A stretch of DNA of 62,734 bases, taken from positions 1 to 62,734 of the forward strand of contig JAODAQ010000053.1 of assembly GCA_025463515.1 (NCBI GenBank), given 5' to 3'. Under the pieces are notes generated by a model that saw only the letters and a list, made by a program, of their open reading frames with translations, had not been told where the DNA came from and searched no databases. The DNA is from Rhodoglobus sp. GTDB lineage: Bacteria > Actinomycetota > Actinomycetes > Actinomycetales > Microbacteriaceae. Both the position numbers and the translations under genes were made by a program. Of the stretch, positions 12,558-62,734 are shown in pieces (within the stretch, counting starts at the first letter, position 1; the number at the start of each line of letters is the position of its first letter).

Positions 12558-12577
12558 AGCTGACGAACGGAGAACAG

Positions 12578-14178: not shown

Positions 14179-14246
14179 GCCTGACCCTACTGCCGAATCA
14201 TCTTCACTTGTACGGCGGATATCGCGGGAACGATAGCCTGTTCGCT

Positions 14247-14357
14247 GTGAGTGCGAGGAAGCGTTTCCCCTGGGCGAGACTCTGGGTCGGGGTGGCGAGT
14301 CTCGTGGCCGTCGGATTCGCCGTCTGGTTCGTCCTGAAGGTGTTCCTCGAGTACTAG
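14247..14357 (+). CDS. 36-residue single-span membrane microprotein
   Basis: A GTG at 14247 opens 36 codons to TAG 14357: a basic N-terminus (SARKRFPWAR) and one hydrophobic helix (WVGVASLVAVGFAVWFVLKV) ending in FLEY. A TAGCCT box sits at 14234-14239, 7 nt before the GTG, the same spacing seen at other leaderless starts in the window. Topology would be N-in, one helix. The last 4 nt overlap the 3' end of the convergent galK. I do not recognise a family. Confidence 0.6.
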   Translation: MSARKRFPWARLWVGVASLVAVGFAVWFVLKVFLEY

Positions 14358-16592: not shown

Positions 16593-16602
16593 GGCATTAC
16601 GA

Positions 16603-16630
16603 TATCGAAAGTGATGGTTTCGAATACGAA
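16603..16630. promoter_or_regulatory. Candidate DeoR operator between galT and its regulator
   Basis: A perfect inverted repeat TCGAAA-N7-TTTCGA (16605-16623) covers the regulator start, and a second half-palindrome TTCG-AATA-CGAA (16619-16630) follows directly. The elements lie on the overlap of the divergent galTK and deoR control regions, fitting autoregulation and galactose control by the DeoR protein. Confidence 0.55.
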
Positions 16631-48235: not shown

Positions 48236-48281
48236 GTGCGGCAGTCTCGCATATGGGGCCGTCAGTTGGCAGACTTGCTCC

Positions 48282-48863
48282 GTGACCTCGTACGTGATCA
48301 AGCCCCTCACCCCGGAGACGTACCCGGCGTGGCTGGCGCTCGCGCAGAAGCACAACGGCGTGTGGGGCGGATGCTACTGCTCGTACTTCCACGGAGACAC
48401 CGAGCAGACCGTCAAGCACGACTACGACGGGCCGACCTTCAAGCAGCGGCTAGTGGATGAGGGCGTCGCCCACGCCGCGCTCGTCTTCGACGGTGATGAC
48501 GCGATTGCCTGGTGCGAGTACGGCAGCCCCGCCGAGCTGCCGAACATCTACCACCGCAAACAGTACGACGCGGGCGAGACGAATCTGGGGCCGTGGCGCA
48601 TCACGTGCTTCTTCGTCGACCGCGACTACCGCCGTTCCGGCGTCGCCTACGAGGCGCTCGCCGGTGCGCTCGAGCTCATCGGGCGGGCCGGCGGGGGAGA
48701 GGTCATCTCGTTCCCGAACGAGCTCGTCGAGGGCAAGCGGACGTCGGCCTCGTTCCTCCACAACGGCACGCGGGCCATGTTCGAGAAGGCCGGCTTCACG
48801 TTCGAACGCCACATCGGCAAGAGCAAGACGGTGATGCGGAAGACGATCCCGTCTTCCCTTTGA
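48282..48863 (+). CDS. GNAT family N-acetyltransferase
   Basis: 193 residues from GTG 48282; CAGACT lies 6 nt upstream. The acetyl-CoA region is WRITCFFVDRDYRRSGVAYEALAGALELIGRAGG (a variant R/Q-x-x-G-x-A/G loop), preceded by an N-terminal part with GVWGGCYCSYFH. The acceptor is unknown. The promoter of the next gene begins inside its last codons. Confidence 0.82.
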   Translation: MTSYVIKPLTPETYPAWLALAQKHNGVWGGCYCSYFHGDTEQTVKHDYDGPTFKQRLVDEGVAHAALVFDGDDAIAWCEYGSPAELPNIYHRKQYDAGETNLGPWRITCFFVDRDYRRSGVAYEALAGALELIGRAGGGEVISFPNELVEGKRTSASFLHNGTRAMFEKAGFTFERHIGKSKTVMRKTIPSSL

Positions 48864-48913
48864 CCTCAGCGGCCGGCGCGGCATAATCATATGTACAGAC
48901 GTCTAGTCTGATT
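48860..48913 (+). promoter_or_regulatory. Promoter and operator A of the hotdog gene
   Basis: TTGACC (48860-48865), 16 nt, CATAAT (48882-48887) is a good sigma-70-type promoter. Nine nt downstream CAGACGTCTAG (48896-48906) fits TAGA-N3-CTAG with one mismatch and forms CAGAC-N5-GTCTG. The following ATTCTG is shared with site C at 55.2 kb. I infer a repressor site of the regional GntR protein. Confidence 0.6.
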
Positions 48914-48979
48914 CTGCACGGTCGAGCGACCGGCGCAGGGTGCGCGATCAACGATGCCGCGCGCCGGAGAGCAGGGCTG

Positions 48980-49972
48980 ATGACCGACGATTTCATGACC
49001 GAGACCGTGACGCACGCCGAGGCGGGCAGGGGCAGGCGCAAGGATGCGAGCTTCGAGCTGGTGGAGATCCCCGAGCCGTTCGGGCCGGTGACGGTGGTGC
49101 TGGACCAGGACAAGCTGCGGACCTTCGCCTTCGCCGTCGACGACTACTCGTCGTGGTACTTCGGCGACTCTCCGTTCGGCGGGCCGATCGGGCATCCCAT
49201 TCTTCTGGCGAACGACCTCCTGTTCCTGTTCTACGAGAACTACGACGGCAACACCGCCGAAGGACTGCAGAGCCACGAGCGGATGACGTTCCACTCACCG
49301 GCCCGCGTGGGGGAGACCATCACGGTCTCAGGGGCGTACACCGAGAAGTACGAGAATCGCGGGCACGGCTATGTGGTTCTGGATGCCGAGGCACGCGGTG
49401 AGGACGGCCGGCTGATCGTCCACCACCACGGTACGGAGATCATGCGAACGCGCGCCGGTGAGGTCGGCGGCACCAGCAGGCCGTCCGGGGCCGCCCGGCG
49501 GGTTTCCGCGGTCATCGACGAGAGTCTGCCGATCGCCCTTGCGGCACAGGCGGGCCTGCCGGCGGGCACCGGGGTTCCGGGCGTCACCCGCAGATTCCAC
49601 CAGGACCAGCTCAACTCGTTCTCCTGGCTGGCCCGCGGCTACCGCAACGTGCACACGGACATCGACAGCGCGCGCAAGAGCCGCGTCGGCAGAACCTTCG
49701 TGCAGGCGCTCCAGCAGACCGAGTTGATCGCGCAGGCCATGGTCCAGTTCTTCGGTGCCTCGTGGTTCACCACGGGCGAGCTCGACCTGAGGTACACGCA
49801 TCCGGCCTTCACGGGGGACCAGCTCACCGTGCGGGCTGCTGTCGTCTCCGACGACGGAGTGACCCAGGAGCTGGAGGTCTGGATCGATACGGAGACCGGC
49901 ATCCGCACCGCGCTCGGCTGGGCGCGTGCGCGGATCGACCCGGATCCGGCCCGACCGCACCAGCTGCTCTAG
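48980..49972 (+). CDS. Double-hotdog MaoC-like protein, paralogue 1
   Basis: 330 residues from ATG 48980 (a second ATG follows five codons later). Two hotdog domains: the N-half has YSSWYFGDSPFGGPIGHPILLANDLL, like a MaoC motif but without its catalytic His. The C-half has NVHTDIDSARKSRVG (His about 224), close to the hydratase motif. So the likely active site is in the C-half, as in eukaryotic hydratase 2. It probably hydrates an enoyl-CoA or binds an acyl thioester. A paralogue is at 55280 under a nearly identical operator. Confidence 0.82.
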   Translation: MTDDFMTETVTHAEAGRGRRKDASFELVEIPEPFGPVTVVLDQDKLRTFAFAVDDYSSWYFGDSPFGGPIGHPILLANDLLFLFYENYDGNTAEGLQSHERMTFHSPARVGETITVSGAYTEKYENRGHGYVVLDAEARGEDGRLIVHHHGTEIMRTRAGEVGGTSRPSGAARRVSAVIDESLPIALAAQAGLPAGTGVPGVTRRFHQDQLNSFSWLARGYRNVHTDIDSARKSRVGRTFVQALQQTELIAQAMVQFFGASWFTTGELDLRYTHPAFTGDQLTVRAAVVSDDGVTQELEVWIDTETGIRTALGWARARIDPDPARPHQLL

Positions 49973-49976
49973 CGGG

Positions 49977-50621
49977 TCAGCGCACGATCCCGATCACGAG
50001 GTCGGCGAGCATCTCGGCGACGGCCTCGTCGCTGAGAGCGCCGTCCTGGTGGAACCACAGAACCAGATTCTCCGGCAGAGCAATGACGGCGAACGCGGCG
50101 ACAGTCACGTTCGCAACGAAGAACTCGCCAGTGCGCACGCCGTCGCGAATGGTCTCCTTGATGCGCTCGAGGTGCTTGCCCTGAAGGTTGAGGACGACGG
50201 ATCGCTCGGGCTCGGCCAGGTGCACGGCGAGCTGCCCGAAGGTCATCACCTGGTTGGTGCCCGTGACGGCGACCGTGCGCCTGACCTGGTGGAGGCAGTG
50301 CGCAATCGTAATAGCGCGCAGTCGCTCGGTCGGCGTGCCCTCGCGCGGGATGCTCTCCATCTGGGCATCGAAGTCGAGCTGGAGCTTCTCGACCGATCGG
50401 GCGAACAGGTCGTACTTTGACGGGAAGTGCCGGTAGATGGCGGTGGCCGTGAGGTTGATGGACTCGGCGATCAGGGCCAGGCTCGTGTTCTCGTAGCCGT
50501 GCGTGCGGAACAGCTTGGCGGCGCGGTCGAGGATCAGGTCGCGTGTGCTTCCGGATGCCCCAGCGGTGCGCTGGGGCAGGGTGACGGCTGTGCGCGCACG
50601 GTCGGGAAACAGGCGGCTCAT
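49977..50621 (-). CDS. TetR family regulator
   Basis: 214 residues from ATG 50621, overlapping the RpiR stop as ATGA. HTH about residues 22-70 (RDLILDRAAKLFRTHGYENTSLALIAESINLTATAIYRHF), then a QsdR-like or fatty-acid-type C-domain with NLQGKHLERIKETIRDGVRTGEF. Co-expressed with RpiR. TetR proteins of this style often sense acyl-CoA, which would fit the CoA chemistry of the neighbourhood. Confidence 0.88.
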   Translation of the reverse strand: MSRLFPDRARTAVTLPQRTAGASGSTRDLILDRAAKLFRTHGYENTSLALIAESINLTATAIYRHFPSKYDLFARSVEKLQLDFDAQMESIPREGTPTERLRAITIAHCLHQVRRTVAVTGTNQVMTFGQLAVHLAEPERSVVLNLQGKHLERIKETIRDGVRTGEFFVANVTVAAFAVIALPENLVLWFHQDGALSDEAVAEMLADLVIGIVR

Positions 50622-51493
50622 TCGAGCTGCTCTCCTGCGACGAGCGCGCTGGTCGCCCGCCACGAGTCCGCGGCAGCCGCGTCAGCCGCGAGCACGCCGG
50701 CGAGCAGGGCGTCGACCACCGTCGTGATGGCCACATGCGCGGCCGACGCGGCCGACCGCCATCCGCCCTCCTGCGCGCTCACGGGCAGATGGATGTCGGC
50801 GAGCTCGCTGAGCGGGGATGCCCCCGCCCGGCACACACCGATAACCGTCGCCCCGGCCAGCCGGGCGATCTCCGCGTTGTAGGCCACCGGAGGGGACGAG
50901 CCCTCGTAGGCGATGCACAGGAGCACGTCCCGCTGGCCGAGCCCTCGGCTCAGGGCGAGCTGCTCGACGTAGTCGGCACTGCCGACCGCGTTCTTGCCCG
51001 CCATGGTCAACTTCCCCGCTGCGTCTTTCGCGAGGTAGCCCATCTGGCCGACGCCCATCACGAGGATCCGGTCGGCGGCGCCGATCTGGGAGACTGCCCT
51101 CGCGAACTGCTCGGCGGGCATGATCTCGAGGGTGTCGCGGATCGCCTGCCGGTTCTCGCGCGCAATGACGGCGAGCATGTGCTCGCCCGCCTCGCCCGCC
51201 TCGCCCGGCGCTCCCGGCTCCGCGGCGTCGACGGCTCCGCCCCCGGCGACGTCGAGGGCCAGCGCGATCTTGAAGTCGGACAGGCCGCGGTAGCCCATCT
51301 TCGCGGTGAACCGCGACACGGCCGCTGGGCTGGTTCCGGCACGTCGCGCGATGTCCGAGACGGGCAGCCGCAGCATCGTCTCCGGGTCCGCGAGCACGGT
51401 GGACGAGATCCTCTGCTCGGTGGGGGTCATCGCCGCATGCCGCGAGCGCAGGAGCGCGAGCGCGCTGCCCGCCTGGTTGGGCGCTGCGCTCAT
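50618..51493 (-). CDS. RpiR (MurR) family regulator
   Basis: 291 residues from ATG 51493, with GGGGAG touching the start; a TTG seven codons earlier is possible. N-terminal HTH_6 (ALLRSRHAAMTPTEQRISSTVLAD, then SPAAVSRFTAKMGYRGLSDFKI) and a C-terminal SIS domain (about 130-265; ADRILVMGVGQMGYLAKD, CIAYEGSSPPV). SIS domains bind phosphosugars, so it may sense a phosphorylated intermediate of the nearby kinase. First gene of a unit with TetR. Confidence 0.92.
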   Translation of the reverse strand: MSAAPNQAGSALALLRSRHAAMTPTEQRISSTVLADPETMLRLPVSDIARRAGTSPAAVSRFTAKMGYRGLSDFKIALALDVAGGGAVDAAEPGAPGEAGEAGEHMLAVIARENRQAIRDTLEIMPAEQFARAVSQIGAADRILVMGVGQMGYLAKDAAGKLTMAGKNAVGSADYVEQLALSRGLGQRDVLLCIAYEGSSPPVAYNAEIARLAGATVIGVCRAGASPLSELADIHLPVSAQEGGWRSAASAAHVAITTVVDALLAGVLAADAAAADSWRATSALVAGEQLE

Positions 51494-51525
51494 CTCCCCA
51501 TCCTGTGGATGCAATTGGGCTGTCC

Positions 51526-51554
51526 TTGACGTACTATTGGTCTAGTCCTCTAGA
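51526..51554 (+). promoter_or_regulatory. Promoter and operator B of the ABC importer
   Basis: TTGACG (51526-51531), 17 nt, TCTAGA (51549-51554) is a possible promoter for the importer. CTAGTCCTCTA (51542-51552) is the reverse of TAGA-N3-CTAG and overlaps the -10. It lies between the divergent RpiR and binding-protein genes. Confidence 0.5.
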
Positions 51555-51736
51555 TAAAAAGCCGTAGGCGGTTCTCGAATGGGAATCCCGCGAACTCCAG
51601 CATGGCATCTGAGGCACTGAAATAAAATATTGGTGACGTGGAATTGTGAATCACGCTTGACACAATCATGGTCGTCACCTAATTTCGAGTTACCGACGCC
51701 AGCCCCGGCAGCGTCCTCAGAGACGAGGAAGTACCC

Positions 51737-51871
51737 GTGTACCTGACACCGTCCTCGCTCCTGCCCCGTCACCGCACCAAGAGCAACAGCGGAGAGGAGG
51801 CATCCGGAGTTACCCCCGGTCGGACGTTCGCGTCCGACGCGACTCTTCCTGAATTCATTCCGACGCCGTGA
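51737..51871 (+). CDS. 44-codon upstream frame coupled to the binding-protein gene
   Basis: In the 425-nt gap before the binding-protein gene, GTG 51737 has GAGGAAG 6 nt upstream and opens 44 codons (MYLTPSSLLPRHRTKSNSG...) ending in TGA at 51869-51871. That stop overlaps a GTG at 51868 that is in frame with the binding protein. It contains the hairpin at 51819-51838. It may be a leader peptide. The rest of the gap (51555-51736) holds nothing I recognise. Confidence 0.35.
   Translation: MYLTPSSLLPRHRTKSNSGEEASGVTPGRTFASDATLPEFIPTP
51819..51838 (+). promoter_or_regulatory. UUCG-capped RNA hairpin in the importer leader
   Basis: GTCGGACG-TTCG-CGTCCGAC is a perfect 8-bp stem with the extra-stable UUCG tetraloop, about 100 nt after the putative promoter's downstream region and 80 nt before the TTG start. 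It may stabilise the mRNA or control translation; no U-tract follows, so it is probably not a terminator. Confidence 0.5.
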
Positions 51872-51918
51872 CGATTCACGTCGCTCTTAAGGCAACGGCG
51901 CCTAAGAAAGGTGAAGCA

Positions 51919-53289
51919 TTGAAAAACCGCATCAAGCGCGGATTGCTCCTCGCAATCGCCACAACCGGAGTGTTCGCGGTCACCGCGTGCTCCGCAACAA
52001 CTCCCACCCCGGAGGCCACGAACGCTGAAGATCTCCGCGGCCAGACGATCAAGGTGCTGGTGAGCTCCGGCCACCAGCAGTTCAACGACGTGTGGCTCAC
52101 CGAGCTCCCGAAGTTCGAGGCCGAGACGGGCATCAAGGTCGAGCTCGACAAGGTGAACACGACCGACATCTCGAGCACCTTCCTCCGCGACGTCACCGTC
52201 GGCGGCTGCACGATCGACAATGTCGAGATGCTCGACGGTGGAACCGCCGCCGCCTCATCTCGCATGGCGGATCTCGGCACCTTCCTCGAAGCCGACGGCT
52301 CCAGCGCCGATGAGCTGCTCAAGGGCCAGGTCAAGTTCGCGCAGACCGCGTACACCTTCGACGACAAGCTCGCCTTCTACCCGTTCTACTCCGGGGCGAA
52401 GGGCGTCGCCTACCGCCAGTCGTGGTTCGAGGACCCGGCAAACCAGGCTGCCTTCAAGGCCGCCTACGGCTACGACCTGCCGAACCCGCCGACCACGCAG
52501 GACCAGATCGTGGACCTCGCCGAGTTCTTCACCACACCGACCACCTCGGGAATCGTGTTCTCAGGAGCCGGCGACCCCGGTGAGAGCACCATCGACGACC
52601 TGATCTTCCGCCAGGGCGTCGACGGGTTCCAGGACAAGGACAACAACGCCCAGTGGGGCCCGGCGCACCCGGACAACGTCAAGAAGGTCACGGAGGCGGC
52701 CACCTACCTGACCGACTTCATCTCCAACGGGTACACGCCCGCGTCGATCGGGGCCATGCAGACCGCGGACACCACCGCGAACTTCCTGGCAGGCAACACC
52801 GCGATGGACTACGACCACGTGTACCTCGCGTGGAACCAGATGGTCGCCGCGCAGGACTCCCTGGGCACGATCGGATCGTTCGAGTTCCCCAGCGCTGAGA
52901 AGGGCAACGGCGGCATCTCGTTCTACTGGGGCCGTGGCATCCCGGAGTGCAGCCAGCACAAGGCAGCCTCGTGGGAGTTCATGAAGTGGGTGATGTCCGA
53001 CGACATCCAGAAGAACGCCCTCACCAAGGGTGTCGGCGTCTACGTGCCGACCAGCGTCGAGCTGCTCGACTGGGCCGTCGAGCAGGGCATCGTGCCCCAG
53101 GGTGTGGCTGACTCCGTCGCCCACGCCAAGGCGTACAAGGTGACCCCGGTCACCGCGCAGCTGCGCCAGTCGATCGGCATCCCCGCGTACGAGAAGCTGA
53201 TCGGCAACCAGTTGACTCCGGGAGACTACGCGGAGACGCTGGGCAATCAGATGCAGGATGCGGCGAACGCCGCAGGCATCACGAACTAA
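51919..53289 (+). CDS. ABC transporter substrate-binding lipoprotein (CUT1 type)
   Basis: 456 residues from TTG 51919, which has AAAGGTGA 4 nt upstream and gives a normal lipoprotein signal (lipobox VTAC, Cys24). A GTG at 51868 adds 17 residues and overlaps the stop of an upstream frame; it is the alternative start. The SBP_bac_1 fold is seen in KVLVSSGHQQFNDVWLTELPKFEAETGIKVE and YPFYSGAKGVAYRQSWF. It binds a carbohydrate-like or polyol-like ligand for the two permeases downstream. Confidence 0.88.
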   Translation: MKNRIKRGLLLAIATTGVFAVTACSATTPTPEATNAEDLRGQTIKVLVSSGHQQFNDVWLTELPKFEAETGIKVELDKVNTTDISSTFLRDVTVGGCTIDNVEMLDGGTAAASSRMADLGTFLEADGSSADELLKGQVKFAQTAYTFDDKLAFYPFYSGAKGVAYRQSWFEDPANQAAFKAAYGYDLPNPPTTQDQIVDLAEFFTTPTTSGIVFSGAGDPGESTIDDLIFRQGVDGFQDKDNNAQWGPAHPDNVKKVTEAATYLTDFISNGYTPASIGAMQTADTTANFLAGNTAMDYDHVYLAWNQMVAAQDSLGTIGSFEFPSAEKGNGGISFYWGRGIPECSQHKAASWEFMKWVMSDDIQKNALTKGVGVYVPTSVELLDWAVEQGIVPQGVADSVAHAKAYKVTPVTAQLRQSIGIPAYEKLIGNQLTPGDYAETLGNQMQDAANAAGITN

Positions 53290-53331
53290 GCCCGTCCACC
53301 GGCCGGAACTCCGGTCGATGAGTCAGGCACG

Positions 53332-53363
53332 GCGGTGCCGCCCGGATCACCGGGCGGCACCGC
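53332..53363 (+). terminator. Strong hairpin between binding-protein and permease genes
   Basis: GCGGTGCCGCCCGG (53332-53345) pairs perfectly with CCGGGCGGCACCGC (53350-53363) around ATCA, a 14-bp stem. Placed 42 nt after the binding-protein stop and 25 nt before the permease start, it probably protects the binding-protein mRNA or partly stops transcription, so that binding protein exceeds permease. Confidence 0.7.
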
Positions 53364-53388
53364 TCATCCCAACGAAAGGTCTCACACC

Positions 53389-54339
53389 ATGACTGAAGCG
53401 ACAGCGCAGATCCCGCCTGGCGCCGTGAAGTCCCTCGGCAAGCCCGCCCCGCGGCGCCGCGGTATCGCCAGTGTCAACTACTGGTGGTTCCTGATCCCCG
53501 CGATGATCGGGGTGTTCGCCCTCATCGCGGTGCCGATCGGGTTCTCGGTCTACTTCAGCCTGCGGAACTACAACCTGCAGCTCGGCTCGGACAGCTTCGC
53601 CGGCATCGACAACTACGTGCGGCTCCTGACCGGTCGCAACGCGGACTTCATCGCGGCACTCGGGCGCACCCTCCTCTACGTCGTCGTCGTCATCGCCCTC
53701 GACTTCGTCCTGGCCATGTCTCAGGCCCTCCTGCTGTTCAGCATGCGTGCGGGCTGGGCGAAGTTCTGGCGGGCGATCTTCATCCTGCCGATCCTCATCA
53801 TCCCCACGGCGAGTGCCGTCTTCTGGCGCAACGTGATGTACGCGCCGCACAACGGCGAGTTCCTCAAGGTCCTGGGCCTGTCCGACGTCGTCTCGCCTCC
53901 GCTCGGCGATCCCCAACTGGCGTTCTGGGCCATCATCGTTACCGTGGTGTGGGCCTGGTCGCCGTGGGTCTTCATCCTGCTTTCGGCCGGCCTCGACCAG
54001 ATCGACAAGTCGATCCTCGAGGCGTCCATGGTCGACGGCGCCACATACTTCCAGCGGCTGCGCACGATCATCCTGCCCCTCATGAAGCCCGTGATCTTCG
54101 TCACTCTGAGCTTCAAGGCGCTTGACTCGTTCCTCGCCTTCCCCTTCGTCTGGATCATGACGATGGGCGGCCCGGGCAACTCGACCCACGTGCTCAGCAC
54201 GTACATCTACCAGCAGGCATTCACCCTGCTCGACTACGGCAACGGATCGGCGATGGCCATCGTCATGCTGGTCATCAGCGGCGGCCTCTCGATCGCCGCG
54301 ATCTTCATCTGGCAGCGATTCTACGGAAAGGAAGCCTGA
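53389..54339 (+). CDS. ABC transporter permease (MalF type)
   Basis: 316 residues from ATG 53389 with GAAAGG upstream. Six hydrophobic helices. The EAA motif EASMVDGATYFQRLRTIILPLMKP is intact and would contact an ATPase. The N-terminal 45 residues are polar. It pairs with the next gene, which starts one base before its end. Confidence 0.93.
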   Translation: MTEATAQIPPGAVKSLGKPAPRRRGIASVNYWWFLIPAMIGVFALIAVPIGFSVYFSLRNYNLQLGSDSFAGIDNYVRLLTGRNADFIAALGRTLLYVVVVIALDFVLAMSQALLLFSMRAGWAKFWRAIFILPILIIPTASAVFWRNVMYAPHNGEFLKVLGLSDVVSPPLGDPQLAFWAIIVTVVWAWSPWVFILLSAGLDQIDKSILEASMVDGATYFQRLRTIILPLMKPVIFVTLSFKALDSFLAFPFVWIMTMGGPGNSTHVLSTYIYQQAFTLLDYGNGSAMAIVMLVISGGLSIAAIFIWQRFYGKEA

Positions 54340-55166
54340 TGCGACTCGTGCGCCGCGGTCTCCGCAACATCCCCCGCGCGGTCCTCCTGATCGTGATCCT
54401 CCTCTGGGTGCTCGTGCCCATGTACTTCCTGGTCGTCACGTCCTTCAGCGCCGAGGGCGACCTGCTGCCGGGCCTTGTGCTGCCGACGGCGGTCACGCTC
54501 GAGAACTACATCGGCGTGTTCACGGGCGCCAACGCGATCTGGCCCGCGCTCATCAACAGCACGGTCGTCACGCTGGCCTCGACGGGCCTGGCGCTGCTGA
54601 TCGCGACGCCGGCCGCGTACGCGCTGTCCCACATGCGCCACAAGAAGCTCGGCCGGGGCCTCTACCTCTCGTTCTTCGTGCTGCGCGGGATCCCGCCGAT
54701 CGCCCTCGTGATGCCGTTCTTCCTGATCTTCTCCAGGTCGAGCATGCTCAACACCCTGCCGGGCCTGATCATCGCACTCACGCCGCTGGCTCTGCCGTAC
54801 TGCGTCTGGACCCTGCGTGTGACCTTCGACCAGATCCCGAAGGAGGTGGAGGAGGCGGGCGCCGTCGACGGCGCGGGCAAGTGGCGGATGTTCACCTCGG
54901 TCGTGCTTCCCATCGCGGCGCCCGGGATCGCGGCCACGGGCATCCTCACCGCCCTGTTCATCTACGTGGACTACATCATCGTCTCGCCGCTGGCCGGACC
55001 CAGCACCTACACCTTCCCGATCTACGTGACGTCGTTCTCGCAGGACTTCGTGCAGCTCGTCGGCCCGCTGTCTGCAGCATCGATCGTCGGGGCGATCCCC
55101 ATGGCGATCATGTTCATCGTGTCGCAGAGGTTCAGCCGGAGGCTCGCGAGCGCCGGCATCCACTGA
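54339..55166 (+). CDS. ABC transporter permease (MalG type)
   Basis: 275 residues from ATG 54339, sharing one base with the previous stop. Six helices and the EAA motif EEAGAVDGAGKWRMFTSVVLP. No ATP-binding gene follows; the next gene is under its own operator. The importer must borrow an ATPase, as many actinobacterial sugar importers do with MsiK. Confidence 0.93.
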   Translation: MRLVRRGLRNIPRAVLLIVILLWVLVPMYFLVVTSFSAEGDLLPGLVLPTAVTLENYIGVFTGANAIWPALINSTVVTLASTGLALLIATPAAYALSHMRHKKLGRGLYLSFFVLRGIPPIALVMPFFLIFSRSSMLNTLPGLIIALTPLALPYCVWTLRVTFDQIPKEVEEAGAVDGAGKWRMFTSVVLPIAAPGIAATGILTALFIYVDYIIVSPLAGPSTYTFPIYVTSFSQDFVQLVGPLSAASIVGAIPMAIMFIVSQRFSRRLASAGIH

Positions 55167-55197
55167 CGCCGGTCGCCCCATTCCTCGGGCTTGGTTT

Positions 55198-55235
55198 TGC
55201 CAATAAAAGGTATAGACCACTAGTCTTATTCTGAA
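55198..55235 (+). promoter_or_regulatory. Promoter and operator C of the catabolic operon
   Basis: TTGCCA (55198-55203), 17 nt, TAGTCT (55221-55226) is a possible promoter. TAGACCACTAG (55213-55223) is an exact TAGA-N3-CTAG and forms AGAC-N5-GTCT across the -10. It is followed by TATTCTGAA, which matches GATTCTGCA at site A. It precedes the hotdog-ThDP-CoA transferase-kinase genes. Confidence 0.65.
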
Positions 55236-55279
55236 AGCACTGATCATCGAAATCCGCTCCTCGAAACGAAAGACACACC

Positions 55280-56293: not shown

Positions 56294-56334
56294 ACACTCC
56301 AACTCCAGGCACTGCCACACAGAAAAAAGAGACC

Positions 56335-58035
56335 ATGACCAAATCAATCACCGGCGGCCAGCTCGTCGTAGACCTGCTCAAGTCGTTCGGCGTCAAGTAC
56401 GTCTTCGGAGTGGTCGGCGGGCAGACGCTCGCCATCACCGATGCGATCATCGACACCCCCGGCATCGAGATGATCCACACCCGCCACGAGAACGCCGCCG
56501 CCGTCATGGCGGACGCGTATGGCCGCCTCACGGGGACGCCCGCCGCGTGCATCTCCACGACCGGCCCCGGTGCGACGAACCTGATCACCGGAGTCGGCGG
56601 TGCGTTCCGTGACTCGAGCCCCGCGTTCATCCTCACCTGCAACAACAACGGTGAGAACATCCACAAGGACGACGCGCAGAACGCCGACCACGTCGAGCTC
56701 TTCAAGCCCCTCACGAAGTACAGCCGCCTCGTGGCCCACGCGTCGTCCCTGAAGCAGGCCATGGAGGAGGCGTACATCAACGCCATGACGGGAAACCCCG
56801 GGCCGGTGCACCTCGACTTCGCCCGCGACACCATCGAGAACATCGTGGCGAACCCGCCCGTCGTGCCCGCCGTCCACCCGGCGCGCAAGTGGGTCGTCGA
56901 GCGGTCGGCACCGAACGCGGTGGCTCTCGCTGAGGCGGTCGAGCGCATTCTCGCCGCGAAGCGCCCGGTCATCTGGCTGGGCAACGGCGGCAACCGCGGG
57001 AACGCCAGCGCGAGTGTGCTCGCCCTCGCCGAGGCGCTGAACATCCCGGTCGTGACCACGTTCAACGGGATCGGCTCCGTGCCCACCACGCACCCTCTGG
57101 TCTTCGGAGCGGTCAGCCGCATGGGCACGACGATCTCCACCCGCGTGCTGGGCGACGCCGACCTCGTGCTGGCGCTCGGCAACAGCCTCAACGCGGTGTC
57201 GACCACGCGCTGGAAGCGCCAGCTGCCCGCAGTGATCCAGGTGGACGTCGATCCGACGATGATCGGGCGCTACTACGCGGACGTCACCACCGGCATCGTG
57301 TCTGACGTCGTGGCATTCGCCGACGGCGTCGTCGCCGGGGTCGGCAACCAGGCGCCGGCGGCGAAGGAGAGCCGGGCATCGTGGGTCTCCGAGCTGCAGG
57401 CAGCGGAGTCCGAGTGGTGGGCGAGCACGGATGTCACGGACGCGTCGCCCGAGGGCGTGCTCTCGCCCGCAGACGTGGTCCGTGCCCTCCGCGAGGTCTC
57501 GCCGGACGACACCCTGCTCATCCCGGATGCCGGCAACCCCGGAGTCTGGTCGTTCCTGTGGCAGATCACGCAGCCCAACACGTACATCAAGCCCGTTGGC
57601 TTCGGCAACATGGGCTTCGCGCTGCCGTCGGCGATCGCCGCATCCGCTATCGACCCCGACCGCCCGGTTCTCGCCCTGATCGGCGACGGATCGCTCGGCA
57701 TGAGCCTCGGCGAGATCGAGACCCTCGCGCGGGTCGGCGGCAAGGTCTGCATCGTCGTGCTCAACGACTCCAGCTACGGCAACATCCGGCAGGAGCAGGT
57801 GCTGCACTTCAACGGCCGGACCATCGGCGTCGACTTCGGTAATGTCGACTTCGGCATGGTCGCCCGCGGCATGGGCGTCGACGGCGAAGTGGTCACCTCC
57901 CTCGAGGTGCTCAAGCGCCGGGTTGCAGAGGTATTCGCCGGGAACACGCCTGCCGTGCTCGACGTGCCGATCGACCGCGACGTGAACGCCTGGACCTTCA
58001 GCGGCTTCCTGCCGTACGAGCCCAGCGAGGAGTAG
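56335..58035 (+). CDS. Thiamine-diphosphate-dependent enzyme (acetolactate synthase-like)
   Basis: 566 residues from ATG 56335 with AAAAAAGAGA upstream. Three-domain ThDP fold: the PYR domain has the catalytic Glu in RHENAAAVMADAYGRLTG (Glu52), the central domain RPVIWLGNGGNRGNAS, and the PP domain the ThDP/Mg motif GDGSLGMSLGEIE (450-) to LNDSSYGN (about 477). No regulatory subunit is nearby, so a catabolic role is more likely than branched-chain synthesis. Beside a CoA-transferase, a 2-hydroxyacyl-CoA lyase or decarboxylase is possible. Exact reaction unknown. Confidence 0.88.
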   Translation: MTKSITGGQLVVDLLKSFGVKYVFGVVGGQTLAITDAIIDTPGIEMIHTRHENAAAVMADAYGRLTGTPAACISTTGPGATNLITGVGGAFRDSSPAFILTCNNNGENIHKDDAQNADHVELFKPLTKYSRLVAHASSLKQAMEEAYINAMTGNPGPVHLDFARDTIENIVANPPVVPAVHPARKWVVERSAPNAVALAEAVERILAAKRPVIWLGNGGNRGNASASVLALAEALNIPVVTTFNGIGSVPTTHPLVFGAVSRMGTTISTRVLGDADLVLALGNSLNAVSTTRWKRQLPAVIQVDVDPTMIGRYYADVTTGIVSDVVAFADGVVAGVGNQAPAAKESRASWVSELQAAESEWWASTDVTDASPEGVLSPADVVRALREVSPDDTLLIPDAGNPGVWSFLWQITQPNTYIKPVGFGNMGFALPSAIAASAIDPDRPVLALIGDGSLGMSLGEIETLARVGGKVCIVVLNDSSYGNIRQEQVLHFNGRTIGVDFGNVDFGMVARGMGVDGEVVTSLEVLKRRVAEVFAGNTPAVLDVPIDRDVNAWTFSGFLPYEPSEE

Positions 58036-58040
58036 CACAG

Positions 58041-59246
58041 ATGGCTGCAGGAGAGAACGAGCCGGTCGGACCCCTCGACGGGGTCAAGGTGCTCGACCTC
58101 TCCCGCTTCATCGCCGGGCCGCTGTGCGCGCAGATCCTCGGTGACTTCGGTGCCGAGGTCGTCAAGATCGAGCGGCCCGGCGGTGAGGACTCCCGCAAGC
58201 ACGGCCCGTACTTCGAGGGCGAGAGCATCTACATGATGCTGTACCACCGCAACAAGTACAACGCGACCCTGGACACCCGCCATGCGAGGGCTCTCGAGGT
58301 GCTCGAGGGGCTCGTGCGCTGGGCGGATGTCGTAGTGGAGAACTTCAGGCCCGGAACGATGGACAAGATGGGGCTGGGCTGGTCGCGCCTGACCGAGCTC
58401 AATCCCAGTGTCATCCTCGTCTCCATCTCGGGCTTCGGGCAGACCGGCCCGGACTCGGAGCGCACGCTCTTCGACGCGATCTCGCAGGCGTCGTCAGGGC
58501 TGATGGCCGCGACCGGCGACCCGGACGGCAAGCCGATCCTCACCGGCACCTACATCGCCGACTACACGACCGGCTATATCGCCGCGATCGGCGCACTCGG
58601 CGCCATCCTGCACCGCAACCGCACGGGGGAGGGCCAGCACGTGGACATCGCGTCGTTGGACTCGATGTTCGCGACCATGGGCATCCGGCTCATCTCGCAC
58701 CTGATGCTCGGGCAGGAGATCCCCCGCAGCGGTTCCCGAGACGCCCTCACCGCCCCCGTCAGCCTGTACGAGGCGGCCGACGGGCCGGTGTACATCCAGG
58801 GCGGCACGCCCTCGTTGTTCCCGAAGCTGTGCGCGGTCATCGGGTATCCGGAGCTCGCGAACGACCCGCGCTTCCAGAATGCCGAGGGGCGCATCGCGCA
58901 CCGCGACTACCTCGAGGGCCTCGTCGGCGTCTGGGCATCCGGGCTCCCGATCGCGGACATCGCGCGCATCCTCGAGGCCGAGGGCATCCCGTACGCCAAG
59001 GTCGCGTCGATCGCCGAGGTCGCCGAGTCTCCGCAGATCGCCGCGCGCGAGATGGTGACCGAGGTCGACCACCCCACGCTCGGCCGGCTGCGCATCCCCA
59101 GCTCGCCGATCAAGATGGGCCTCACGCCGCCGACGGTGCGCAAGGCTCCCTCGCTCGCCGGCGAGGACAGCGACGAGGTGTACACGCGCATTCTCGGCAT
59201 GTCTGCGGAGCAGATCGCGCAGTTGCGCGCCGAGGGGGCGATCTGA
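58041..59246 (+). CDS. Family III CoA-transferase (CaiB/BaiF)
   Basis: 401 residues, 5 nt after the ThDP gene. N-terminal GVKVLDLSRFIAGPLCAQILGDFGAEVVKIE and VVENFRPGTMDKMGLGW are diagnostic; the catalytic Asp is in GTYIADYTTGY (about Asp174). It moves CoA between carboxylic acids, here probably activating the substrate acid for the hotdog and ThDP enzymes. Its acceptor and donor are unknown. Confidence 0.93.
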   Translation: MAAGENEPVGPLDGVKVLDLSRFIAGPLCAQILGDFGAEVVKIERPGGEDSRKHGPYFEGESIYMMLYHRNKYNATLDTRHARALEVLEGLVRWADVVVENFRPGTMDKMGLGWSRLTELNPSVILVSISGFGQTGPDSERTLFDAISQASSGLMAATGDPDGKPILTGTYIADYTTGYIAAIGALGAILHRNRTGEGQHVDIASLDSMFATMGIRLISHLMLGQEIPRSGSRDALTAPVSLYEAADGPVYIQGGTPSLFPKLCAVIGYPELANDPRFQNAEGRIAHRDYLEGLVGVWASGLPIADIARILEAEGIPYAKVASIAEVAESPQIAAREMVTEVDHPTLGRLRIPSSPIKMGLTPPTVRKAPSLAGEDSDEVYTRILGMSAEQIAQLRAEGAI

Positions 59247-59247
59247 C

Positions 59248-60693
59248 GTGGCGGGCGAGTTGGTGGTCGCGATCGATGTCGGCTCGTCAGCCGTCCGCGC
59301 CGCCGTCGTCGACCCGGCCGGGCGGGTGCTCGCCTCGAAGCGGCAGTCGCGACCGGACTCGCTGTCGGGCGTCACCTTCGACGCCTCCCTCCTCTGGGAG
59401 CAGGTGCGGGATGCCGTGACCGCCCTCCCCGCGGACCTGCGCCGGTCGGCGGCAGGCCTGGCGATTGCCGCCCATATCGGCACGGTATTCACGGATGCCG
59501 ACTTCGAACCGGTCGCGCAGGGCTTCGGCTGGGCCGACTCGTCCGGCGTCGACCTCCTCGCGTCCCGCCTGGGCGAGTCCACAACCAGCGCGCTCGCGAC
59601 GATCGGGCGGGCGGCCCTCACCGGCGGACCGGCCGGTGCCGCCCTTGCGCTGCGCGACCGGGATGCCCGCGGTTTCGACTCCGTGCGCCGCATCCTCAGC
59701 CCCAAGGACTACCTGGTCGGAAGGCTCACCGGCGTCGCGGCCACCGACCACACCGGCGCGGCCTACTCGGGCTTGAGCGACGTGCGGCAGCGCGACTGGT
59801 CTGCCTGGCTGCTCGAGTCTCTTGGCATCGACCGGGCACTCCTGCCGGAGCAGCTCGGCTCGACAGCGGTCGTGGGCACCGTGACGGCCCGGAGCGCCCA
59901 ACTCCTGGGGCTGCCGGCCGGCCTGCCCGTCGTGGCAGGCGGACCGGACGGCAGCATGGGCGCCGCCTACGTCCTCGCCGGGCGAAGCGACGCGATCGCC
60001 GATGTCGCCGGTACGACAGACGTGCTCGTCCGCCCGATCGCCTCGCCCGATGCCGCTCCCGCGGAGGCGATGCTGAACCCCTACATCCTCGGCGGCTGGG
60101 CCGCCGGGGGCGCGACCGGGATGACCGGCGGAGCCCTGAACCGCTGGGCGGTCCTGCTCGGCGAACCGGACGCTGCGACAGCCCTTGACCGATTCGGCGG
60201 CGGCGTCGCCTCGATGCCCCCGGGTGCTGAGGGCCTGATCATCCGGCCCACGCTCTCGGGCAGCCGCTTCCCGCGGTGGAATCCCTCGGAGGTGGGCATG
60301 GTCGACGGCCAGCTCGACTCGCACGGCCCCGCCCACTTCCTCCGGGCCGTGATCGAGGGCGCGTCGTACGTCGTGCGCGAGGGCATTGACCTGCTGGCCC
60401 CGGATGCAGACGTCGAGGTCGTGCTGGCCGGGGGTGCCGCGCGCTCGCCCCTGCTGGCCCAGCTCAGGGCCGATGTGCTCGGCAGGGTTGTGCACGTCTG
60501 CGCCGAACCCGATGTCAGTCTCATGGGTGCGGCACTGCTCGCGCTGCTCGGCAGCGGGATCCACTCCTCGGCCGAGGAGGCCGCTGCCGCGATGGACGAG
60601 AAGTGGACCGTGCTGGAGCCCGACCCGTTGGCGGCGAACCGGTACGAGGAGCTCTACGCGAGCTGGCGGACGGCGACGACGCCCGCCAGCTGA
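59248..60693 (+). CDS. FGGY family carbohydrate kinase (xylulokinase-like)
   Basis: 481 residues from GTG 59248, one base after the CoA-transferase stop. N-terminal phosphate loop VVAIDVGSSAVRAAVVD, then GGPDGSMGAAYVLAG with the likely catalytic Asp, IADVAGTTDVLVRP and the C-terminal EVVLAGGAARSPLLAQLRADVLG. It phosphorylates a sugar or polyol. Its presence in a CoA-type operon is unusual. The C-terminus ends 6 nt from the convergent dehydrogenase gene. Confidence 0.9.
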   Translation: MAGELVVAIDVGSSAVRAAVVDPAGRVLASKRQSRPDSLSGVTFDASLLWEQVRDAVTALPADLRRSAAGLAIAAHIGTVFTDADFEPVAQGFGWADSSGVDLLASRLGESTTSALATIGRAALTGGPAGAALALRDRDARGFDSVRRILSPKDYLVGRLTGVAATDHTGAAYSGLSDVRQRDWSAWLLESLGIDRALLPEQLGSTAVVGTVTARSAQLLGLPAGLPVVAGGPDGSMGAAYVLAGRSDAIADVAGTTDVLVRPIASPDAAPAEAMLNPYILGGWAAGGATGMTGGALNRWAVLLGEPDAATALDRFGGGVASMPPGAEGLIIRPTLSGSRFPRWNPSEVGMVDGQLDSHGPAHFLRAVIEGASYVVREGIDLLAPDADVEVVLAGGAARSPLLAQLRADVLGRVVHVCAEPDVSLMGAALLALLGSGIHSSAEEAAAAMDEKWTVLEPDPLAANRYEELYASWRTATTPAS

Positions 60694-60699
60694 ACCGCC

Positions 60700-62190
60700 C
60701 TACTCGGCCATCGGGTCGGCGATCGCGATGTACTGCGTTGAGAGGTACTCGTTGATTCCCTCTGCTCCGCCCTCCCGGCCGAACCCGGACTGCTTGATCC
60801 CGCCGAAGGGAGCCGCCGCACTCGAGATGAGGCCGGTGTTGAGCCCGAGCATCCCGGACTGGATGTGCTGCGCGACGCGCAGCGACCGGTTGAGGTCCTT
60901 GGTGAAGAGGTAGGCGGCAAGGCCGTACTCGGTGGCGTTGGCGGCGGCGATCGCCTGGTCCTCGGTGGAGAACGTCGTGATCGTGGCGACGGGGCCGAAG
61001 ATCTCCTCGGCGAGGATGCTGCTGCCGAGCGGCACGTCCATCAGCACCGTGGGCTCGAAGAAGTGGCCCGCTCCGGCTCGCTGGCTGCCCCCGGCCAGGA
61101 CGACAGCACCGTCGTCGAGCGCGCCGCGGACGAGCTCCGTGACCTTGGCGACGCTCTTGGCGTCGATAAGGGGGCCGATGTCGGTACCGGCGTCGGTACC
61201 GTGCCCGAGCGTGAGCGCCGACATCCGCTCCGCGAGCCGGGACGCGAACTCGCCCCCGATGCTCTCGTGGACGATGAACCGGTTCGCCGCGGTGCAGGCC
61301 TCGCCCATGTTGCGCAGTTTCGCCTGCATCGCCCCGGTGACCGCGGCATCCAGATCGGCATCCTCGAAGACGATGAACGGCGCGTTGCCGCCGAGCTCCA
61401 TGGACGTGCGCAGCACAGTATCGGCGCTGTCCTTGATCAACTGCCTGCCCACCGAGGTGGAGCCCGTGAACGAGACCTTGCGCAGTCGCGGGTCCCGCAG
61501 GAGCGGCCCTGTCACCGCCCCGGCGCTCGAGGTGGGGATCACGTTGAGCACGCCGTCCGGCAGGCCAGCCTCGAGGAGGACGCTCGCCAGCAGCATCGAC
61601 GTGAGCGGGGTCAGGTTCGCCGGCTTGAGCACCATCGTGCAGCCGGCCGCGATCGCGGGCGCGATCTTGCGGGTGGCCATCGCGAGCGGGAAGTTCCACG
61701 GCGTGATGAGCAGGCTGGGGCCGACGGGCTTGTGCGTGACGAGGTGCCGGCTCCGGCCATCGGGCGCGATCGAGTACCGGCCGGAGATCCGCACGGCCTC
61801 CTCGGAGAACCACCGCAGGAAGTCCGCCCCGTAGGCGACCTCGCCCCGGGCCTCGGAGAGGGGCTTGCCCATCTCGAGCGTCATGAGCAGGGCGAAGTCC
61901 TCCGTCCGCGCGGTGACGATCTCGAACGCCCGGCGCAGGATCTCCCCGCGCTCCCGCGGCGCGGTGGCGGCCCACTCGGACTGGGCTGCGACCGCCGCGT
62001 CCAGCGCGGCGAGGCCGTCGGCGGGCGAGGCGTCGGCAACGTCCCGTAGTGGCTGGCCCGTGGCCGGGTCCTCCACGGTGAAGGTCCGCCCGTCCTGGGC
62101 GGTCCGCCAGCGGCCGCCGATCAGGAGCTCGTGCGGAATGGCGTGCAGCAATGCGGGGGCACCGGCGAGGGCAGTATTCACGATCTCCAT
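60700..62190 (-). CDS. Aldehyde dehydrogenase (succinate-semialdehyde type)
   Basis: 496 residues. GabD-like: PWNFPLAMATRKIAPAIAAGCTMVLKPA, FTGSTSVGRQLI, the general base Glu in MELGGNAPFIVFEDAD and the nucleophile Cys in MGEACTAANRF (about 297). It oxidises an aldehyde with NAD(P), possibly one released by the ThDP enzyme. It is divergent from the GntR gene, with several TAGA-N3-CTAG sites between them. Confidence 0.93.
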   Translation of the reverse strand: MEIVNTALAGAPALLHAIPHELLIGGRWRTAQDGRTFTVEDPATGQPLRDVADASPADGLAALDAAVAAQSEWAATAPRERGEILRRAFEIVTARTEDFALLMTLEMGKPLSEARGEVAYGADFLRWFSEEAVRISGRYSIAPDGRSRHLVTHKPVGPSLLITPWNFPLAMATRKIAPAIAAGCTMVLKPANLTPLTSMLLASVLLEAGLPDGVLNVIPTSSAGAVTGPLLRDPRLRKVSFTGSTSVGRQLIKDSADTVLRTSMELGGNAPFIVFEDADLDAAVTGAMQAKLRNMGEACTAANRFIVHESIGGEFASRLAERMSALTLGHGTDAGTDIGPLIDAKSVAKVTELVRGALDDGAVVLAGGSQRAGAGHFFEPTVLMDVPLGSSILAEEIFGPVATITTFSTEDQAIAAANATEYGLAAYLFTKDLNRSLRVAQHIQSGMLGLNTGLISSAAAPFGGIKQSGFGREGGAEGINEYLSTQYIAIADPMAE

Positions 62191-62202
62191 CCCATTGTCA
62201 GC

Positions 62203-62296
62203 TAGACATCTAGATGACTAGTATGAGATTACCGCAGATTGGCACGCCCAAGCGCTAAAATAGGCCTAGAAGTCTATGCGGACCGGTCTACTATTT
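62203..62296. promoter_or_regulatory. Operators D and E between dehydrogenase and GntR
   Basis: TAGACATCTAG (62203-62213) and TAGATGACTAG (62211-62221) overlap and both fit TAGA-N3-CTAG exactly. TAGAAGTCTAT (62267-62277) fits with one mismatch. AAATAG (62258-62263) and CTATTT (62291-62296) flank the last site as an inverted repeat. The set covers both divergent control regions and suggests autoregulation by GntR. Confidence 0.6.
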
Positions 62297-62352
62297 GGTC
62301 AGCCCGTCGGCGCCCCGCACCGCGGTCGAACAGCGAGTGAAGGAGTGCATCG

Positions 62353-62734
62353 GTGAGTGCCGGGCCTATCTACCAAGTGATCAATCGGGACATCGCCGAC
62401 CAGATCTCCTCCGGCTCACTGCAAGCCGGAGACCGCCTCGACAGCGAGCTCAAACTCGCCGAGCGGTACGGCGTCAGCCGGATGACCGTGCGCCAGGCCC
62501 TCGGCGAGCTCGAGAGCGACGGGCTGGTCGTGAGGCGCCACGGCTCCGGCACCTATGTCAGCGAGCCCCGCTCGCTCCAGCGCCGGGTCAACCACCTCGG
62601 GTCGTTCCACGAGGAGATGGGCCTCGATTCCAAGGCCGTCAAGACGCGGCTGATCACCCAGGAGGTCGCCGTGCCGCCCGAGGCGGTGGCGGCAGACCTC
62701 CGCCTCACGGCGGGGCAGACTGCCACGCACCTCG
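62353..62734 (+). CDS. GntR/UTRA family regulator, N-terminal part
   Basis: About 127 codons from GTG 62353 (GAAGGAG upstream) to the window edge. The winged helix is IADQISSGSLQAGDRLDSELKLAERYGVSRMTVRQALGELESDGLVVRRHGSGTYV (about residues 14-68), and the HutC-type UTRA effector domain begins after it (GSFHEEMGLDSKAV). It is the best candidate to bind the TAGA-N3-CTAG sites across the 48.9-62.3 kb region. The effector part is cut off. Confidence 0.92.
   Translation, partial: MSAGPIYQVINRDIADQISSGSLQAGDRLDSELKLAERYGVSRMTVRQALGELESDGLVVRRHGSGTYVSEPRSLQRRVNHLGSFHEEMGLDSKAVKTRLITQEVAVPPEAVAADLRLTAGQTATHL

Follow-up and report, generated by a model that had tools for sequence, protein, structure and literature searches.

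A 62,734-base stretch of a Rhodoglobus sp. genome (contig JAODAQ010000053.1 of assembly GCA_025463515.1), here called the window, comprises the first 62,734 bases of a contig of 135,098 bases (G000:C62) and carries a putative catabolic gene cluster whose core encodes, all on the forward strand, a double-hotdog protein of 337 amino acids (HD2; 55280 to 56293), a thiamine diphosphate (ThDP)-dependent enzyme of 566 amino acids (56335 to 58035), a CaiB-type (family III) coenzyme A (CoA)-transferase (58041 to 59246), and an FGGY carbohydrate kinase (59248 to 60693). We tentatively propose, with a chance that we put close to but short of even, that the cluster specifies a catabolic route for a hydroxy acid, or for a sugar-like compound oxidized to one, in which the acid would be activated with CoA and split by a lyase-type reaction into formyl-CoA and a ketose, the latter then being phosphorylated. 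The original prediction, made from the window alone, had suggested CoA activation of a hydroxy acid, cleavage by the ThDP enzyme to a one- or two-carbon acyl-CoA and an aldehyde, and oxidation of the aldehyde. Activation and cleavage to a one-carbon acyl-CoA and a carbonyl compound are retained in our preferred model, with residue-level support, whereas the carbonyl product is probably phosphorylated, by the FGGY kinase in one lineage and by a dihydroxyacetone kinase in another, so that the kinase and the CoA steps probably form one route.

Conservation was scored over 28 other loci, mostly actinobacterial, that carry an ortholog of the ThDP enzyme (at least 60% identity); gene presence was called by preset identity thresholds (at least 50% for the second double-hotdog protein, HD1, and for the aldehyde dehydrogenase, ALDH), and some of the loci, e.g., L026, L019, and L013, end at contig ends. 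Searching genome contigs with the ThDP protein as query identified 24 loci (70 to 95% identity), from a Rhodoglobus metagenome-assembled genome (MAG), Leifsonia, Streptomyces, Prauserella, Nocardiopsis, Saccharopolyspora, Amycolatopsis, Asanoa, Nesterenkonia, an Agrococcus MAG, and one Mesorhizobium MAG. At E ≤ 1e-30, a family search with HD2 matched 7 of 398 genomes, a count that includes the query genome itself and two genomes with paralogs only (35 to 36%); this search added four ThDP-bearing loci (L037, L040, L041, and L042). The FGGY kinase was present in all 28 loci, a GntR-type regulator in 26, and CaiB and HD2 in 25 each. Less constant were a metabolite:H+ symporter (MHS) in 19, HD1 in 18, CaiB2 in 6, and CtfA2B2 in 5, and rarer still were CtfAB, the short-chain dehydrogenase/reductase (SDR) SDRb, and the window-type binding protein (4 each), ALDH and Gfo (3 each), and a TRAP transporter and AroE (2 each). 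In Streptomyces, Prauserella, and Nocardiopsis, the genes are usually arranged as HD1, MHS symporter, HD2, ThDP enzyme, CaiB, GntR, and FGGY, and between-locus distances for ThDP, CaiB, FGGY, and HD2 correlate with one another (r of 0.71 to 0.88, shared ancestry being uncontrolled). The neighborhood singled out in the original prediction is thus kept across related loci. Its aldehyde-oxidizing enzyme is present in the window but, found in 3 of the 28 loci, turned out to be peripheral.

The distribution is patchy, since no HD2 match was found in the nine same-genus genomes listed. The ThDP enzyme was recovered only from the query's own genome both in a phylum-wide sample (1 of 396 genomes at E ≤ 1e-170, with up to three candidates scored per genome) and in a Rhizobiaceae sample (1 of 297 at E ≤ 1e-150), and a plasmid search for its relatives gave none at E ≤ 1e-100; all these distribution figures are lower bounds. 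Such scarcity, together with the variation of transporters and regulators between lineages, is what one would expect if unrelated catabolic modules had come to lie side by side by chance. We consider that highly improbable: the constancy of FGGY, CaiB, and HD2 in ThDP loci speaks against a chance neighborhood of the core, and operator-like sites described below are common to cluster genes and relatives.

HD2 orthologs also occur in a second lineage. A search with HD2 in the family of the Mesorhizobium MAG matched 4 of 394 genomes at E ≤ 1e-25, three of which hold HD2 orthologs; the fourth match (31%) lies in 19.9 kb of sequence that contains neither the ThDP enzyme nor the kinase of the set. 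Microvirga sp. VF16 and Shinella sp. PSBB067 carry further orthologs on plasmids. In the resulting seven alphaproteobacterial loci (L057 to L060 and L072 to L074, with L059 and L060 near-identical), HD-type and CaiB-type proteins stand beside a different ThDP subfamily, here ThDPa, and a dihydroxyacetone kinase (DhaK plus DhaL). The HD protein is a true HD2 ortholog (62 to 65%) in five of the seven, while L059 and L060 carry one of about 34% instead. ThDPa is 29 to 30% identical to the window ThDP enzyme; the two of the seven that were scanned score as members of the PRK06112 subfamily (907 and 899.3 bits; cutoff, 673), and the rest are 67 to 98% identical to one of these. The leanest loci, L073 and L074, read CaiB2, TRAP transporter, HD2, DhaL, DhaK, and ThDP and are flanked on one side by a LacI gene. 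Pairing of ThDP enzyme and kinase was strict: the window-type ThDP enzyme went with FGGY in 28 of 28 loci and ThDPa with DhaK and DhaL in 7 of 7, with no mixing; at E ≤ 1e-10 and 60% coverage, the alphaproteobacterial loci yielded no FGGY match and the 28 ThDP loci no DhaK match.

The window kinase matches both Pfam domains of its family, FGGY_N (100.8 bits) and FGGY_C (77.3 bits). As a xylulokinase it was rejected, with a score of 192.2 against the curated cutoff of 380.25 for TIGR01312. Because two unrelated kinases fill one slot and the conserved core has no aldolase, the data suggest that the kinase acts on a short hydroxymethyl-ketone, most simply dihydroxyacetone, and that the phosphorylated product feeds straight into central metabolism.

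We next turn to the ThDP enzyme. It falls short of the curated cutoffs for an ordinary acetolactate synthase (359.9 versus 509 for PRK08322 and 346.5 versus 538.35 for TIGR00118). In an alignment with yeast acetohydroxyacid synthase (AHAS), the positions of R380 and W586, which we take to be substrate-pocket residues in that numbering, are occupied by Val288 and Glu487, so both the pocket arginine and the pocket tryptophan are missing; Glu487 is found in 28 of 28 orthologs, two distant ThDP matches at 25 to 29% being left out. The enzyme keeps Glu52 and Gln115, the latter invariant and equivalent to Q128 of the 2-hydroxyacyl-CoA lyase (HACL) of Actinomycetospora chiangmaiensis (AcHACL). A glutamine there also occurs in AHAS, pyruvate oxidase (POX), and others (PMC13327070), so it is not HACL specific. 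The same paper identifies the proton-carrying glutamate as AcHACL E493, with Val or Ile at this position in AHAS and POX (yeast AHAS V583), and describes other HACLs that also go without the helix or the glutamate (PMC13327070). Human HACL2 is one with Ile554 at the E493 position and Glu557 one helix turn on (PMC13327070 and PMC8760513), and Ile484-x-x-Glu487 of the window enzyme aligns by position with this I554/E557 pair. In ThDPa the E493 position is Glu in four of the seven (two of them near-identical) and Gln in three, a count that leaves out an eighth row, L058_24781 (33%). An AcHACL E493S mutant is described as ligating dihydroxyacetone (PMC13327070). Altogether, the residue pattern lends moderate support, short of proof, to HACL-type chemistry in both ThDP and ThDPa.

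The CaiB protein matches PF02515 with 398.2 bits (cutoff, 23.3), and Asp145, at the position of the catalytic aspartate of family III CoA-transferases, is present in all 26 CaiB rows (that of the window among them) and in 17 of 19 CaiB2 rows (one Asn, one gap). Its best solved relative is YfdE, followed by a formyl-CoA transferase, and family scores were 258.1 and 255.7 bits for formyl-CoA transferase, 253.1 for CoA:oxalate, 252.9 for succinate-glutarate, and 251.8 for mesaconate. An identity as the formyl-CoA transferase Frc was rejected (TIGR03253, 255.7 versus a curated 504.2). Two further types occur. The glutamate of the (F)ESG motif is catalytic in class I CoA-transferases, and CtfB, encoded beyond the window, has it in 8 of 8 rows, which represent seven loci because L015 also serves as the reference; FESG is the sequence found in the copy of this cluster. 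CtfA2B2 of the relatives is related to glutaconate CoA-transferase and to entries 5mzw and 6co6, which we take to be AibAB and IpdAB, and CtfB2 lacks the catalytic glutamate in 11 of 11 rows.

HD1 and CtfA2B2 never occur together in the 28 loci (overlap, 0; raw Fisher P = 0.0026). Five loci without HD1 at the 50% threshold are also without CtfA2B2: L032 and L034 have HD1-like proteins at 46 to 47%, and the genomes of L013, L019, and L026 have an HD1-like gene on a different contig (one 93% identical to HD1, the others 43% and 41% identical to HD2, the level shown by HD1 itself). Counting these subthreshold and off-contig copies, 23 loci have HD1, and CtfA2B2 is found in precisely the remaining five; as L037 and L040 are closely related, there are at most four independent CtfA2B2 cases, and in the HD1-positive set CtfA2B2 was scored at the loci only. 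In our reading, HD1 and CtfA2B2, though unrelated, may carry out one and the same step, which could be a hydrolysis or else a C-C or C-O conversion of an acyl-CoA.

HD1 itself (330 amino acids; 48980 to 49972, forward strand) matches MaoC_dehydratas (30.3 bits; cutoff, 27) and FAS1_DH_region (37.7 bits; cutoff, 22) and is 41% identical to HD2, which scores under the MaoC cutoff of 27 (16.3 bits). The HD2 model (predicted local distance difference test [pLDDT], 86.3) is a double hotdog with Foldseek matches to 5i7n (E = 2.0e-18) and MeaC (E = 1.2e-15), and its nearest folds are MaoC-like dehydratases, mesaconyl-CoA hydratase, and enoyl-CoA hydratase 2. The MaoC/hydratase-2 motif is of the Asp-x-Asn-Pro-x-His type; in the C-terminal half HD1 reads RGYRNVH and HD2 GEYVTNTH, keeping the histidine. 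Because the motif aspartate is replaced by Gly in HD1 and by Tyr in HD2, a normal hydratase mechanism is not assured for either. Both might instead be CoA-thioester hydrolases, with CtfA2B2 substituting for HD1 as hydrolase and CoA being freed from formyl-CoA or a side product. The altered motifs, the mutual exclusion of HD1 and CtfA2B2, and the glutamate-less CtfB2 would all agree with this. We nonetheless think it rather unlikely, as the nearest folds are hydratases and dehydratases, and, of the glutamate-less relatives, AibAB is known as a decarboxylase and IpdAB as a ring hydrolase, neither as a thioesterase. Other clusters of the family also place CaiB and HD genes close together (L039:3150-5452, L043:6233-11151, and L044:9620-11865), and their HD proteins have D....WH in the N-terminal hotdog half, compared with D....WY in HD1 and HD2 of the window.

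Transport varies between loci. The window has a binding protein (51868 to 53289) and two permeases (53389 to 54339 and 54339 to 55166), all on the forward strand, and the carbohydrate-type importer noted in the original prediction is therefore real, but it is lineage specific rather than diagnostic: in 19 of the 28 ThDP loci an MHS symporter takes its place. That of L018 scores 411.4 as a metabolite/H+ symporter (cutoff, 443.45) and 362.8 as a shikimate transporter (cutoff, 538). TRAP transporters are found in L027, L028, and L072 to L074, and other loci have MHS, TRAP, CUT2-, BMP-, or PAAT-like systems, types assigned from sequence. The window-type importer travels with CtfAB and SDRb in L013, L014, L015, and L022 (with Gfo in three and AroE in two; L013 is cut). 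Because many loci hold acid-type transporters, namely the MHS symporter and TRAP systems, the data suggest that the substrate is an acid. In our reading, the acid importers bring in the core substrate and the sugar-type importers a precursor that is oxidized by Gfo, SDRs, and perhaps AroE.

These accessory genes could also be read as a cyclitol or cyclohexane-acid route akin to inositol degradation, in which Gfo/Idh, SDR, and AroE-like enzymes would oxidize a ring alcohol, the ThDP enzyme would hydrolyze a ring 1,2-diketone like IolD, CoA-transferase-like enzymes would open beta-diketones like IpdAB, and the kinase and ALDH would finish the pathway. The shikimate-transporter-like symporter, the kinship of CtfA2B2 with glutaconate CoA-transferase and with the presumed AibAB and IpdAB entries, and an AroE-like gene in the window cluster, L015, L022, L038, L059, and L060 speak for it; so does a Gfo/Idh protein near inositol dehydrogenase (79.6 bits; cutoff, 355), yet this is level with xylose and levoglucosan dehydrogenases (79.3 and 76.2). 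Gfo, SDRb, and AroE, however, occur in only 3, 4, and 2 of the 28 loci and never in a locus with an MHS symporter, and the ThDP enzyme is less like cyclohexane-1,2-dione hydrolase than like AHAS (178.6 versus 262.8 bits), which makes a ring-opening pathway quite unlikely.

In the lyase route that we prefer, CaiB, or a CtfAB pair, would load CoA onto the acid, as its family implies. HD2, with HD1 or with CtfA2B2 in the place of HD1, may then alter the CoA thioester, perhaps by addition or removal of water; this is the weakest step. From a 2-hydroxyacyl-CoA the ThDP enzyme would release formyl-CoA together with a small hydroxymethyl-ketone, either dihydroxyacetone or a closely related compound; this cleavage is proposed because of the residues and the kinase swap. 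FGGY, or DhaK plus DhaL in alphaproteobacteria, would phosphorylate the ketone, giving dihydroxyacetone phosphate if the ketone is dihydroxyacetone, while, as happens in oxalate degradation, CaiB could transfer CoA from formyl-CoA to the next acid, with release of formate. In the version with a CUT1 importer, Gfo, the SDRs, the AroE-like enzyme, and CtfAB probably turn an imported neutral compound into the acid. A more specific form, possible but doubtful, would hold for both phyla: the thioester of a hydroxymethyl-branched hydroxy acid, e.g., 2-(hydroxymethyl)glycerate or a 2-C-branched sugar acid, would be split by a 2-hydroxyacyl-CoA lyase into formyl-CoA, reused by CaiB, and dihydroxyacetone or another ketose, handed to one of two unrelated kinases, with lyase and kinase replaced as a pair. 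Apionate, 2-carboxyarabinitol or hamamelonate, isosaccharinate, tetronates, quinate/shikimate, and cyclitols were weighed as substrates, and each leaves some conserved gene, mostly HD2, without a role. A role for HD2 would follow from a carboxylate-swap version, in which CaiB would act on a dicarboxylate as an intramolecular CoA-transferase.

Several observations weigh against the lyase route. It is hard to place a hydratase-like HD2 ahead of an alpha-cleavage, given that hydration normally yields a 3-hydroxyacyl-CoA. CaiB singles out no formyl-CoA donor, its families all scoring within 251.8 to 258.1 bits and under their cutoffs, and the importer of the window is of the sugar type. DhaK of L058 scores 356.9 against a dhaK1 cutoff of 406.25 and may act on a ketone other than dihydroxyacetone. 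The gene set is not rigid: CaiB is missing from L014 and replaced by CaiB2 in L037 and L040, and HD2 is missing at L014 and L017, neither genome having an HD match (HD1 query at 1e-20, HD2 query at 1e-15; L017 is a MAG). As to the lyase itself, the window enzyme has Ile484, not Glu, at the AcHACL E493 position, its Glu487 lying one helix turn further on; the authors who discuss HACL2 E557 describe its role as speculation (PMC8760513), and a Gln at the E493 position, as in three of seven ThDPa, cut AcHACL activity about 50-fold in the E493Q mutant.

The pattern of Ile484 and Glu487 matches HACL2 by position, but by overall sequence and fold (structure model with a pLDDT of 83.5) the nearest proteins are acetolactate synthase and the alpha-hydroxy-beta-ketoacid synthase BbmA, not HACL. 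This likeness favors a carboligase of the acetolactate synthase kind, which would join a decarboxylated 2-oxo acid, e.g., hydroxypyruvate, to glyoxylate or an aldehyde; the ketose formed after CO2 loss would be phosphorylated, which also fits the kinase swap, and CaiB and the hotdogs would supply the 2-oxo acid on a separate branch. With Val and Glu at the R380 and W586 positions and the acetolactate synthase cutoffs missed, such a carboligase appears unlikely; moreover, HD- and CaiB-type proteins go with both swapped ThDP/kinase pairs (L014 and L017 being without HD), which makes the CoA chemistry look integral.

Because a GntR gene is present in 26 of the 28 ThDP loci, GntR is likely the regulator of the cluster. 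The word TAGACNNNTAGTC, at no more than one mismatch, has four matches in the window, all between cluster genes (0.70 expected; none of 100 shuffles reached 4), a descriptive figure as the word was derived from these same sites; at two mismatches there was no excess in the window (17 versus 17.15 expected) or in L054 (5 versus 4.97). A zero-mismatch match lies between Gfo and AroE (L054:11353). The operator-like sites, given without strand, are upstream of HD1 (48896 to 48908), between the RpiR and binding-protein genes (51532 to 51552; a similar stretch precedes the binding-protein gene in L015 and L022), upstream of HD2 (55213 to 55225; a similar stretch precedes HD2 in L013, L015, and L022), and between ALDH and GntR (62203 to 62276).

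All the genes named in the original prediction were found, the two hotdogs, ThDP enzyme, CaiB, FGGY, ALDH, importer, and three regulators. Its end of the region at 62,734, by comparison, is only the window edge, which splits the set: the cluster spans 48,980 to 71,098 of the contig. The remaining window genes encode a TetR-type regulator (49977 to 50663, reverse; TetR_N 57.2 and TetR_C_24 60.6 bits), an RpiR/MurR-type regulator with an SIS domain (50618 to 51514, reverse), the ALDH, nearest succinate-semialdehyde dehydrogenases (60700 to 62190, reverse), and GntR (62353 to 62734, forward, cut by the window; whole at C62:62353-63066). The start of the TetR open reading frame (ORF) overlaps the end of RpiR; translation more likely begins at an internal ATG near 50621, in which case the two genes would be translationally coupled. 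The binding protein has weak matches to carbohydrate-binding proteins and, by eye, a lipoprotein-like signal; the permeases match sugar and other permease families, all under curated cutoffs, and no ATPase gene was seen adjoining these three (51868 to 55166).

Beyond the window (contig numbering, stop codons excluded), the reverse strand encodes an SDR (63076 to 63804), a one-domain MaoC protein (63804 to 64280), an SDR within an ORF (64267 to 65352), a lone CtfA-like subunit (65055 to 65762), CtfB within an ORF (65762 to 67294), CtfA within an ORF (66541 to 68034, match at 66544 to 67461), an SDR (67473 to 68240), and a Gfo/Idh oxidoreductase (68268 to 69293), and the forward strand encodes an AroE-like dehydrogenase (69399 to 70253) and an SDR (70253 to 71095); ORFs from 71311 on had no match to the reference proteins used. 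G+C per 2 kb is 0.654 to 0.673 in window positions 48001 to 56000 and 0.675 to 0.727 in the remaining blocks, in line with a patchy, possibly transferred cluster. Directly upstream, a 218-amino-acid protein (48207 to 48863) is acetyltransferase-like by eye, with no Pfam match at E of 0.01.

The original prediction held that CoA-thioester chemistry and sugar phosphorylation are rarely joined in one operon. Their occurrence side by side is not unique to this locus, as gene sets with CoA and sugar-kinase genes recur: L038 (G244:C1:3277000-3295000, about 791 to 17999) is another HD and CaiB cluster in the family with an FGGY-like kinase, alongside class I aldolase-like, AroE-like, alcohol dehydrogenase, ALDH, and four-carbon-acid-sugar-kinase-like genes and an ABC importer, several of these labels being by eye. 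Between CtfA2B2 and HD2, L037 (10896 to 12416) and L040 (7823 to 9349) have a pyranose-oxidase-like GMC oxidoreductase (171.6 bits in L037; cutoff, 544.9), hinting at an oxidized-sugar precursor. Cyclase-like genes, presumably kynurenine-formamidase-like, lie near HD genes in two phyla (L058:15046-15903 and L038:6569-7621).

If the lyase route is correct, CoA-thioester cleavage to a one-carbon unit would be joined with sugar phosphorylation, two normally separate kinds of catabolism, and 2-hydroxyacyl-CoA lyases, which are of interest for one-carbon assimilation, would gain a new physiological role and perhaps a natural enzyme for dihydroxyacetone plus formyl-CoA. Functions would also follow for genes labeled "acetolactate synthase-like," "MaoC-like," and "CoA-transferase" in soil actinobacteria and alphaproteobacteria, and the swap of lyase and kinase as a pair makes the kinase substrate testable with few assays.

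Among the matches listed from the open-access literature, we recognized no characterized pathway with the whole combination, in agreement with the original prediction; a search there on BbmA and CsmA likewise brought up nothing relevant. The 2-hydroxyisobutyrate pathway of A. chiangmaiensis is similar in cleaving a CoA-activated hydroxy acid with a ThDP enzyme to a ketone and formyl-CoA, and in the GntR gene listed for its cluster (PMC7176365). It differs in using a CoA ligase, and the available sections of that paper name no CaiB, hotdog, or sugar kinase (PMC7176365). AcHACL also has Glu at 493, where the window enzyme has Ile, with Glu three residues later. AHAS and BbmA, the nearest solved structures, differ at the R380 and W586 positions (Val and an invariant Glu), besides the missed cutoffs. 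In its predicted fold, HD2 resembles the double-hotdog hydratases for mesaconyl-CoA and itaconyl-CoA and enoyl-CoA hydratase 2, with matches to 5i7n, MeaC (8hgn), MFE-2 (1s9c), and PaIch (8khg), but fold alignments give only 12 to 16% identity and the motif aspartate is unconserved in HD2. Deoxyribonate oxidation degrades a sugar acid through CoA intermediates with a different enzyme set and is not known to involve an HACL-type ThDP enzyme or a ketose kinase. Myo-inositol degradation (Iol) brings together a Gfo/Idh dehydrogenase, a ThDP enzyme, a kinase, and ALDH; Iol differs from the window cluster in its kinase family and in an aldolase step that the window core lacks, and it is not known to involve a CoA-transferase or hotdogs. 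Oxalate degradation by Frc and Oxc couples a CaiB-type transferase to an acyl-CoA-acting ThDP enzyme that makes formyl-CoA. CaiB of the window misses the curated Frc level, and no Oxc model is among the best 25 of the 54 families listed for its ThDP enzyme, but the window cluster shares the pairing of a CaiB-type with a ThDP enzyme and adds to it the hotdogs and a kinase.

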